Position numbers and translations under genes: made by a program. 64,000 bases of DNA from positions 1-64,000 of the forward strand of contig NZ_WUQY01000003.1 in the NCBI RefSeq assembly GCF_009829085.1, written 5' to 3'. Below, piece by piece: positions 19,260 through 49,625 of the stretch. The stretch is from Sphingobacterium bovisgrunnientis. GTDB lineage: Bacteria; Bacteroidota; Bacteroidia; Sphingobacteriales; Sphingobacteriaceae. Numbering within the stretch: the stretch's first letter is position 1; each line of letters begins with the position of its first letter. A model generated the notes under the pieces. The model searched no databases. It was given only the letters and a program-made list of their open reading frames with translations, and was not told where the DNA came from.

Positions 19260-19580
19260 CTAACTTACATCGGTCTTTTTGAAAAAGATTTCGAATTTGA
19301 TATTACAATTTTTCATTACCTCTTCGGCGTCTTTTTTTAAACTAGATAGATCATTGCTTGATGAATTGATTTTTTCGTCCCTCATATTTTCAAGCTTTTC
19401 TAAGGTTAAATCCATTTCTCCTTTCCATCCTTGTAGATCTTCCAAACCTTCAGGCCAGTATTCTAATATCGTATCTCGGTAGTTTTTAAAGCTAATATAC
19501 AGGTCTCCCCCTGTTATTGCTTTCTTAACATTAGTGGTTAATTCGTCAAGTTTTGCAATTATATCATTTTTAGTTTCCAT
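19260..19580 (-). CDS. Hypothetical helical protein, 106 residues
   Basis: A Lys/Glu-rich helical protein (METKNDIIAKLDELTTNVKK start) with a central GGDLYISF segment. No known domain. It is transcribed alone in the accessory zone and convergent with the plus-strand terminator at 19212. Confidence 0.5.
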   Translation of the reverse strand: METKNDIIAKLDELTTNVKKAITGGDLYISFKNYRDTILEYWPEGLEDLQGWKGEMDLTLEKLENMRDEKINSSSNDLSSLKKDAEEVMKNCNIKFEIFFKKTDVS

Positions 19581-19749
19581 AGCATAAAGATTAAAATAAT
19601 GTGATTTTTAAGTACTGAATAAACTGGGAAGATTAGTTGAACTGCAGCAATTCGTCATCACTTCCTTTAAGTAAATGCTCTAAATCTGATACTCCTGTAT
19701 TCAGCATCCTTACTTGAAAACAATATTCAAGTTGTTTAGTTTTGTCTAT

Positions 19750-47364: not shown

Positions 47365-47400
47365 AAAAAACCGTGCAGAAGCTGGGAACAACTACACGGT
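47365..47400 (-). terminator. Terminator downstream of the tRNA-like RNA
   Basis: On the minus strand ACCGTG and CACGGT pair, followed by T6. It is the first T-tailed hairpin after the tRNA-like RNA. A further hairpin ACCACCC/GGGTGGT stands at 47446-47476. The stretch 47401-47683 holds these hairpins and no gene I can support. Confidence 0.65.
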
Positions 47401-47683
47401 CTAACTAACCAATTATAAACCTAAATTATGAAAAGACGATTTTAAACCACCCAACATAGTAAACTAACGGGGTGGTGTCGCTATCATTCCGACTGTCATA
47501 TCATTCACTACCGACTTTCTAACAAGTATCAATGATAAAGAGTTAACTTGTAGATATGGTATTCTGTCTTTCCAGCTGTCAATTACTATTCTATTAGTCA
47601 AGTATTATTTGTCATACTAAACACTTTTACCTTATGAGCGAATTGCTAACTCTCCTTTTATTTTTACCCTTAGGATCGGGTTG

Positions 47684-47817
47684 TCAAGGCGACAGGATCC
47701 GAACCTGTATGAGTAACCGTGTGTGCCTCTTCCTTACTTACTCTATAATTCGTTTTGTAGATTTCCATACTACAAGACACCACACGACGGTGCGTCTACC
47801 AATTCCGCCACACCTCA
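47684..47817 (-). ncRNA. tRNA-like RNA with expanded anticodon arm, about 134 nt
   Basis: Read on the minus strand, a 7-bp acceptor stem (TGAGGTG with CGCCTTG, with three G-T pairs) and TG at positions 8-9 come first. Next is a D-arm GCGGAATTGGTAGACGC identical to that of E. coli tRNA-Leu. A normal T-arm (ACAGG, TTCGGAT, CCTGT) is at 47692-47708. Where the anticodon arm should be there is a 9-bp helix (CCGT-GTGTG with CACAC-ACGG, one bulged C), closing about 55 nt that contain a 6-bp hairpin TTGTAG/CTACAA. CCA is not encoded. No standard anticodon loop can be drawn. Confidence 0.65.
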
Positions 47818-47828
47818 ATGTTTCAACA

Positions 47829-47992
47829 AACCAAAGTATAAAGAACGTATACTCAATTAACTTTGGTTATCCCTAGCTAAGCGTTATTATTCGCTAGGTT
47901 ATTTTCTTTCCCCAACCGACTACGTGTCGTTAATCTTCTCGAAAATTGGGTTTATGTCATAAATGTAGACCTTTGTTTCATGCCGCCCAATT
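47829..47992 (-). other. Structured non-coding region upstream of the tRNA-like RNA
   Basis: Four stems occur in 165 bp: AACCAAAGT/ACTTTGGTT (47829-47868), CCTAGC/GCTAGG (47872-47898), CGAC/GTCG (47917-47929) and AATTGGG/CCCAATT (47944-47992). No gene fits. It may be the 5' part of a longer RNA that ends in the tRNA-like domain. Confidence 0.4.
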
Positions 47993-48140
47993 CCAAAGCT
48001 GTAGCAAAATCTCTTTGCTCACCATACGGACTACATTTTATTTTCTATCTATTTATTTCCTTACTTGTGTTAAACAAAGATATAAAACACTTTTTATATA
48101 AACAAATACAATTATATATTATTTATTCTTTTTTGATATA

Positions 48141-49625
48141 TTATTTTTCAAAAGTTTTGCTTTGAAACTCTTGATCCTGTCTAGCCTCTTCCAGTATTTG
48201 TCTTTGTTCCGCTTCAATATCGGTTACTTCACCTAACATTTGCATAGCTGTTTTACGTGAAAGCAATTTAGCATTTACCATACTAGTTACATGCGAGATT
48301 AATTCTTCTTTGTTGACTGGTAATGCATCTTTAACTTTGATTGCTGGTATAACATCATCCATATCTTTAAAATCCTCAGGGCTGAAAGAAATAAGCATTT
48401 TTCGGATAACATTGTTTCTCCTGGTTAGCATTTCCTTTAAACGTTTCTGAGCTTTATTGCCTTTCATTTGTGGCCCCATAAATAGCAAACGCAAAGCGAT
48501 TCCAGATGTACCATTGCTCATTAATTGAGACATGGTATTGAAGCTAATGTCGGGAGTGTTGGTGATATCGAACTGCTCTTGTTTCAGACGATCAAATTCA
48601 AGCTTTTTAGATTCTACCATTGCATCAGGCTGCGCGAATGATACACTACCTCTTTGACCTTGATCACCTCCTTTTACTTGAATAACTTTCGCAACTTCAC
48701 CTTGAGAAGGGAGGGATTCCGCCTCACCTTCAACCACCATTGTAGGGTCACCGTAATAATCATTTGTATCAGCAAGGTTTGATAAGTTGGTTTCTTCTCT
48801 ATTAGCTAGTGGTTGAATGTTTGCCCACTCAGGACGTTTTTGCTCATGGTAAACAATAGGGAGAAATCCGTAACCTTCTTTTGTTTCTGTTACCCACGGA
48901 CCACCATCGTCTTGACTTCCTAAAATAATGTGATCAGCATGATAAAAATCAAAGTGTATAGTCTTGATATCGGTTACTGGATCAGTAGTTTCATAACGTC
49001 TACCAAGTCCTATAAGGTCACCGTGTTCATCCCAAACTGGATAGATATCGTCTCCATTTTCTTTACAGAGAAGTAAGTAACCTGGTCTACGTATACTACC
49101 TTCTAATGTAGTTCCTTTCCAGTAATTTTCATCTTCATAGTCATACCAAAGCTCAGCGCAATGTGTTTCAATCATTCGACGCTCTACAATAGCTTCAGTT
49201 TCGAAATAGAGCTTATTATCTTTCCAAACCTTTTGAATGAGTTCGAATAATCCTTTCTTAGCTTCATTGTCTTGGTTGTATTCAAGGGATATTTCGGCAC
49301 CACACTCAAAAAATACTGCTGCTTCAACAATTTGCATTTGACGCGCCAATTGAAGGCGGTTAACTTCTACTTCTGATTGTTCCGTTGACGTTTTGGTGTC
49401 TCCGCTGATGGCATCATCGTATTTTTCACCTTCATGATCTAACATCCGGTTTGCCCTTATATTTGTATCGTTTACATCATGCAGAAAAGGATCGTATTGC
49501 TTCATGCAATCAGCCACTGACAAAGTGTTTTTACCCAGCTTGATTACCTTTTCAGTTTTTTTTATGACATCGACAAGCTTGCCAAAATCACCGCTTATAA
49601 GCGTCTCTAATTGTTCTTTTTTCAT
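48141..49625 (-). CDS. Phage portal protein, 494 residues
   Basis: The protein has the plan of SPP1 gp6/DUF-type portals: a helical N-terminus, EVNRLQLARQMQIVEAAVFF, a central beta part with YYGDPTMVVEGEAESLPSQG, and a long helix plus SLPFLKEMLTR-like region near the end. It follows the large terminase with a 4-bp overlap. It forms the dodecameric gate for DNA packaging. It starts MKKEQLETLISGDFGKLVDV. Confidence 0.85.
   Translation of the reverse strand: MKKEQLETLISGDFGKLVDVIKKTEKVIKLGKNTLSVADCMKQYDPFLHDVNDTNIRANRMLDHEGEKYDDAISGDTKTSTEQSEVEVNRLQLARQMQIVEAAVFFECGAEISLEYNQDNEAKKGLFELIQKVWKDNKLYFETEAIVERRMIETHCAELWYDYEDENYWKGTTLEGSIRRPGYLLLCKENGDDIYPVWDEHGDLIGLGRRYETTDPVTDIKTIHFDFYHADHIILGSQDDGGPWVTETKEGYGFLPIVYHEQKRPEWANIQPLANREETNLSNLADTNDYYGDPTMVVEGEAESLPSQGEVAKVIQVKGGDQGQRGSVSFAQPDAMVESKKLEFDRLKQEQFDITNTPDISFNTMSQLMSNGTSGIALRLLFMGPQMKGNKAQKRLKEMLTRRNNVIRKMLISFSPEDFKDMDDVIPAIKVKDALPVNKEELISHVTSMVNAKLLSRKTAMQMLGEVTDIEAEQRQILEEARQDQEFQSKTFEK

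Follow-up and report, generated by a model that had tools for sequence, protein, structure and literature searches.

Within a 64,000-nt stretch of Sphingobacterium bovisgrunnientis DNA (the window), which by our reading of its genes is a prophage, we find a minus-strand RNA with a tRNA acceptor stem, a tRNA-Leu-type D-arm, a T-arm and, in place of the anticodon and variable arms, an 83-nt middle. What can be read from the sequence is the shell, the missing anticodon arm, an exchange of the middle that begins exactly at the end of the D-arm, and a spread of such elements in viral contigs. On these grounds we think it probable, if some way from certain, that the RNA is a natural 'tRNA scaffold', that is, a tRNA shell in which the anticodon and variable arms have been replaced by a segment that phages exchange.

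Results

A tRNA shell without an anticodon arm

A first reading of this DNA, made from its letters (the sequence-only reading), had described an acceptor stem, a Leu-type D-arm and a T-arm, and we located all three at 47684-47817 on the minus strand (Table 1). The class II tRNA features, a 7-bp acceptor stem, a D-arm with G18G19 and a T-arm with UUC, are all present in the window, and U8G9 lies between the 5' strand of the acceptor and the D-arm. An anticodon arm of 5 bp and 7 nt is absent from the correct position of the element. The distance from D-arm to T-arm is 83 nt, compared with 31-36 nt in most ordinary Leu-type genes of the fetched loci; the extra RNA reported in place of an anticodon arm is thereby borne out. 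It is also true that no CCA is encoded, yet this is ordinary, as the sole host tRNA-Leu gene that we inspected (L002) has none either. At E ≤ 0.001, a search of the window's own genome for further copies returned the locus itself and, beyond that, just the D-arm region of a host tRNA-Leu.

In the window, neither ARAGORN at its default (no introns) nor Rfam at gathering scores, including its tmRNA models, reports anything. The ARAGORN check proposed in the sequence-only reading therefore gave no call without introns; with introns allowed the shell was found at these ends and called Val or Thr with a 59-nt intron, the outcome depending on the options. The cloverleaf is missing from the unconstrained minimum-energy fold of 47670-47825, for which the folding z-score is −0.09, and enforcing the tRNA shell costs 1.2 kcal/mol (−33.6 versus a free minimum of −34.8). 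The 17-nt D-arm recurs identically in 133 of 177 long elements, its last 12 nt being prescribed, in most cases, by the search pattern. Among 183 long Leu-type elements the window copy is the only one with G58, where A58 is pattern-forced for most others. Because of this G58 and the three G-U pairs of its acceptor stem, the window copy may be decaying.

The 9-bp helix and inner hairpin described earlier for the middle can be located as predicted folds, but the single helices of the middle do not go beyond chance, the best of them being equalled in 137 of 1000 shuffles. An alternative with a pseudoknot, in which 47790-47781 would pair with 47725-47717 and 47743-47738 with 47716-47711, has a score reached in 33 of 1000 shuffles. 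Our searches for a diverged relative of the window cargo returned only the identical L062, and the fold of the cargo is a predicted one. We also considered the cargo as antisense to the host genome and rejected this, the best non-self match (26 nt at 88%, E 0.08) being unconvincing.

Table 1. Features of the tRNA-like RNA and of the RNA island around it (window coordinates).
Feature	Position	Strand	Remark
Whole tRNA-like RNA, acceptor to discriminator A73	47684..47817	−	
Acceptor stem, 5' strand UGAGGUG	47811..47817	−	7/7 pairs, three G-U
Acceptor stem, 3' strand CGCCUUG	47685..47691	−	
Leu-type D-arm GCG-GAAUUGGUAGA-CGC	47792..47808	−	3-bp stem, G18G19
Middle (cargo), 83 nt	47709..47791	−	replaces anticodon and variable arms
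T-arm ACAGG-UUCGGAU-CCUGU	47692..47708	−	5-bp stem, loop UUCGGAU, G at 58
Discriminator A73	47684	−	
Predicted cargo helix, 5' strand	47781..47790	−	9 bp, one bulged C
Predicted cargo helix, 3' strand	47717..47725	−	
Predicted inner hairpin	47755..47775	−	6 bp
Possible pseudoknot strand GAGUAA	47738..47743	−	
Possible pseudoknot partner UUACUC	47711..47716	−	close to T-arm
Portal protein gene	48141..49625	−	upstream of island; named via relatives
Bacteroidota-type promoter-like site, TTTG-N20-TATCTTTG	48075..48106	−	start of RNA island
Conserved leader RNA element CCCAA..GAGAA..ACGTAGTCGG..TTGGG	47911..47950	−	pattern in 15/15 loci
Two more island hairpins	47831..47898	−	read by eye
Intrinsic-terminator-like hairpin and U-run	47365..47400	−	island end; read by eye

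Close relatives can keep the shell and exchange the middle

The closest diverged relative that we found for the window element is L063. The portals of L063 and of L062, the latter agreeing with the window at every base over 840 nt and perhaps coming from the same genome, are 99% and 100% identical to the query, respectively. Between the window (or L062) and L063 a stretch of 56 identical nt ends at the last base of the D-arm and does not run on by a single base into the middle. The two middles, of 83 and 138 nt, have an identity of 0.45 (0.43 when shuffled), and the match resumes in the T-arm and 3' acceptor strand with an identity of 0.76. L073 and L074 have an identical 5' shell of 26 nt and cargos of identity 0.47 (shuffled 0.46). 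Close relatives can thus keep the shell and swap the whole middle, and the middle therefore looks like cargo; what we find is the mark of a tRNA scaffold, a kept shell with an exchangeable insert at the anticodon position. Judging from these alignments, exchange among near relatives is frequent but not constant, since some of them share one cargo, namely L074, L077 and L337, and likewise L067-L070. The cargo of L073 recurs in L066 outside a Leu-type shell, where by eye a plain stem closes it, and compensatory changes in this L073/L066 cargo do not exceed expectation (p 0.25).

The element lies in a phage RNA island

Named genomes carry terminases 84-90% identical to that of the window, and from such relatives the host genus of the prophage is probably Sphingobacterium. 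The terminase and portal genes lie upstream of an RNA island and on the same strand. This island spans the DNA from the portal stop to the terminator-like hairpin at 47400-47365, and related phages have it too. Fifteen island loci were compared (11 from IMG/VR, 3 genome contigs and 1 further genome), among which L067-L070 are near-identical and L062, being the same as the window over 840 nt, was not counted as independent. A strict Bacteroidota-type promoter pattern, resting on what we take to be the consensus of that phylum, was counted 35-37 nt beyond the portal end in 12 of the 15 relatives' loci, several of them near-identical, and in 2 of 750 shuffles. Eleven of the 15 islands hold a Leu-type element with a middle of more than 38 nt. 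ARAGORN calls a same-strand tRNA in 10 of the 15, and in 4 of those a tRNA-Asn call covers the tRNA-like unit.

Read by eye, the phage islands resemble mosaics of exchangeable RNA modules, made up of units with their own closing stems. The hairpin module ACCACCC..GGGTGGT at 47446-47476 of the window is also seen in the phage island L093, and GACAGCTGGAAAGACAG at 47560-47580 is one version of an nGGAAAGACn hairpin that recurs in relatives' islands (both by eye). On the plus strand, 47634-47876 of the window holds an opposite-strand ORF with SGCQGDRIRTC, presumably a spurious protein of the sort that often arises from the complement of a T-arm.

A large class in viral contigs and genomes

We scanned IMG/VR with patterns of a Leu D-arm and a T-arm separated by 50-80 or 81-111 nt, each of which matched at least 120 loci, with 80 listed for each. 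The first counts used only the loci listed (160 Leu-type and 80 of another pattern, which likewise matched at least 120 loci), and later ones all fetched loci. The patterns force the D-arm (A15, G18G19) and, for most elements, A58; they do not force U48, A73 or acceptor pairing. At these pattern-chosen loci there are at least 183 distinct long Leu-type elements, whose middles range from 43 to 196 nt with a median of 70. Among the matches listed, all seven acceptor pairs form in 169 of the 183, with 104 different acceptor stems. Elements with 7/7 pairs occur at no fewer than 163 IMG/VR loci and 14 others, some of the loci overlapping. Judged by sequence pattern, then, elements of such build are present in more than a hundred viral contigs, and the proposal of a tRNA-shaped phage RNA lacking an anticodon arm is supported, the RNA of the window being one member of a large class.

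A strict shell search of both strands of 2.48 Mb of fetched loci, which were mostly chosen by shell pattern, gave 647 matches, 190 of them with middles of more than 44 nt; the window copy, having G58, falls outside its strict T-loop pattern. Reversed sequence gave 0 matches in the same search, and because of this difference we conclude that the shell type is not due to chance. A correctly placed anticodon hairpin can be drawn in 34 of 179 long Leu-type elements (shuffled 33), versus 79 of 84 ordinary ones. BLAST clustering sorts the middles of 179 elements into 155 clusters, and one scaffold holds 49 clusters. As RNA, the middles fold slightly better than their shuffles (mean z −0.96).

In genomes the 50-80 pattern is rare, occurring in 3 of 395 from the phylum and 6 of 399 from the family (these six all belong to the genus of the window), and this rarity fits phage carriage. 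The shell test was passed by 3 of the 3 phylum genomes and 4 of the 6 family genomes with the pattern. G58 keeps the window's own genome from matching the pattern. Of 168 elements, 54 have an ordinary tRNA no more than 1 kb away, in all 54 cases on the same strand (17% for random positions). ARAGORN at default overlaps only 2 of the 168, and 7 of 20 elements score at or above the cut-off of the Rfam tRNA model.

The main scan found the Leu type only because it was anchored on Leu-type D-arms, and we rejected the idea of a Leu-only class, as patterns with class-I and Ser-type D-arms also yield long elements. For the class-I pattern these make up 59 of the 81 matches listed, and 78 of 103 when distinct elements are taken among the matches listed; with the Ser-type pattern we obtained 7 contigs, in each of which the acceptor has 7/7 pairs. 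A general island scan added a few weaker non-Leu candidates.

Named phages gave no full match to the L117 element, and only 24-30 nt of the shell of L436, a member of family A below, were matched in them (20 records). In Bacteroides phage BS-TP2 (host Bacteroides salyersiae BG8) an unannotated element at 19544-19651 has a same-strand gene on either side, 20 and 25 nt away, a placement as expected if the element is cut from mRNA. Two loci of the window's phylum, L332 and L333, by eye hold tRNA-Leu-like RNAs in which the variable arm is kept and a long closed helix replaces the 17-nt anticodon arm, and they represent a possible intermediate form.

Covariation in the middles and the class-I families A and B

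Among the class-I elements, family A, a cluster of 16 (L388, L409, L424, L436 and others), has a conserved, covarying middle of about 49-72 nt. In an alignment of 14 of the 16 members (L451 and L419 left out), 16 of 27 pairs across shell and middle are changed on both sides, including all five pairs of the main middle helix. The covariation score is 0.500, versus 0.151 when shuffled and at most 0.085 when slid. An anticodon arm could be restored in 0 of the 16 members. Rfam gives, in five scanned loci of this family, the tRNA model only or no match.

For the Leu-type cargos the compensatory signal is modest: of 27 pairs, 24 were usable, and in these we count 19 double changes versus 9.1 expected, with one pair reaching p ≤ 0.05. 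The cargo pattern of L101/L153 was found in 28 contigs, 5 of them with a tRNA shell and two distinct cargos.

Family B (L470:905-1026 and relatives, a cluster of 15) consists of class-I phage tRNA genes with a 39-54-nt insert in the anticodon arm, mostly in the 5' strand of the anticodon stem and mostly with an ACAGCAA motif. The hairpin of the insert covaries strongly (score 0.818, versus 0.210 shuffled; 13 of 15 members aligned, L389 and L457 left out). Omission of the insert leaves a canonical anticodon arm in 14 of 15 members (shuffles 0.03), and in 17 of 47 other class-I long elements (shuffles 0.05). From their sequences the family B inserts look like very small tRNA introns. Matches to this family lie in Serratia phage BF (296567-296688), Cronobacter phage GAP32, Pectobacterium phage CBB and Erwinia phages, and database records label the matching RNAs tRNA-Lys, tRNA-Phe or tRNA-OTHER/pseudo.

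Discussion

Were the RNA a natural tRNA scaffold, the island would be transcribed from its own promoter, and RNase P together with the 3' tRNA enzymes would free the shell from the island transcript, after which CCA would be added. The tRNA fold would shield the RNA from exonucleases. The cargo would be the working part and turn over fast, and its targets, in host or phage, would vary from one phage to the next. Many Leu-type members could also be leucylated, but the model does not need it. It could also be, though here we would not go as far as to lean that way, that phages at large hold an overlooked RNA class which resembles the laboratory tRNA scaffold in build, uses a tRNA body for maturation and stability and presents fast-changing effectors at the anticodon position; such RNAs would have been overlooked because tRNA finders reject them. 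If true, phages found the tRNA scaffold before biotechnology did, many phage genomes hold small RNAs that the standard tRNA finder misses, and the cargos are candidate anti-defence or host-control RNAs. The class would then also provide new natural shells for RNA production in cells, and it offers a handle on the old question of the role of T4-type stable RNAs.

The shell could itself be the active part, as a tRNA mimic that is leucylated or that binds LeuRS, EF-Tu or a tRNA-targeting host factor, with the middle serving as a spacer. As far as the accessible part of PMC9976931 goes, A73, A15-U48, G18G19 and D/T-loop contacts are what E. coli LeuRS requires, the anticodon and the long variable arm being dispensable; in favour of a mimic, 179 of the 183 long Leu-type elements keep U48 and 145 of 183 keep A73 (among the matches listed). 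The latter count compares with 82 of 84 for ordinary-length elements, again among the matches listed, so that roughly one in five members of the class lacks A73. Moreover, class-I shells and D-arms with long middles also occur, and the window copy has lost A58, whose contact with U54 the same part of PMC9976931 calls important for LeuRS. A spacer needs no covarying middle, yet that of family A covaries, and a main role as a decoy for a synthetase, EF-Tu, RNase P or an anticodon nuclease, as the sequence-only reading had proposed, sits poorly with close relatives that can keep the shell while swapping the whole middle. We consider a mimic unlikely. A decayed tRNA-Leu gene, left in the prophage as a pseudogene, would account for the three G-U pairs and G58 of the window copy and for its lack of an anticodon arm. 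Decay would, however, damage shell and middle equally, whereas most of the other elements keep perfect shells (7/7 pairs in 169 of 183 among the matches listed) round unrelated middles, and we judge a pseudogene to be quite improbable.

A tRNA with an intron-like insert, the removal of which gives an anticodon arm, is what family B appears to be (14 of 15 restored). In the Leu-type class, however, removal of one insert restores both an anticodon and a variable arm in 6 of 176 long elements (shuffled 4.7); relaxed rules give 36 real versus 36.3 shuffled cases (n=176) and a narrower search 5 versus 2.8. The strictest rule gives 5 of 176 versus 1.2 shuffled, and therefore a few true intron cases exist, but by these counts the Leu-type elements do not, as a class, seem to be intron-bearing. 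For the window itself, intron removal with a class-II variable arm has zero solutions; one class-I type arm is obtained by omitting 57 nt, but it comes with an 8-nt variable region and by a rule satisfied by 7 real and 3.1 shuffled middles out of 176 each. An intron-like insert in the window element is thus, to our mind, very improbable. Another alternative is that the whole island, which is bounded by a promoter-like start and a terminator-like hairpin, gives a single large ornate RNA of the GOLLD or ROOL kind, in which the element would form a domain. GOLLD and ROOL are phage RNAs of unknown function that lie near phage tRNA islands, according to the portion of PMC12286853 available. Both are much larger than the window element. 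Searched at gathering scores, the window has no Rfam hit and those islands of relatives that were covered have hits to the tRNA model alone, with GOLLD and ROOL absent from both; by eye these islands look mosaic, with units closed by their own stems. We regard such a large RNA as scarcely probable.

To return to the tRNA scaffold, no phage tRNA shells with exchanged anticodon arms appear in the titles and abstract openings surveyed, a survey that most subscription journals fall outside. The same layout is found in engineered tRNA scaffolds, in which, as described in the available sections of PMC3753655, the acceptor, T- and D-arms are kept and the anticodon stem-loop is replaced by an RNA of interest; these sections add that stable RNAs (tRNAs and derivatives) can be produced in E. 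coli, being recognised, precisely processed and not polyadenylated. Engineered scaffolds are man-made, whereas the phage elements are natural, have many cargos and are known here from sequence alone. RNA C of phage T4, encoded in a tRNA cluster, is seen on Northern blots and has no known function (PMC3014915 and PMC9697503, as far as accessible). This RNA (rnaC, species 1 RNA, 139 nt, NC_000866) resembles the window element in carrying a T-arm and an acceptor, the latter only partly paired, and differs in having no Leu-type D-arm and, by eye, two mismatches in the acceptor; it gives no Rfam tRNA match above cut-off. The bacterial Y RNA YrlA is permuted, and its free ends are not at the acceptor. 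It contains a tRNA-like domain (PMC7790460, in the part available), and neither the window nor the islands searched match an Rfam model of the YrlA kind. tmRNA, as does the window element, combines tRNA-like ends with other RNA in place of the anticodon arm. It is longer and without a normal D-stem, and Rfam gives no tmRNA match for the window or the searched islands. In one viral contig a Leu-type tRNA-like element is preceded, at a distance of some 250 nt, by a match to the Rfam permuted tmRNA RF04321 (L147:1518-1779; 51.1 bits against a cut-off of 47).
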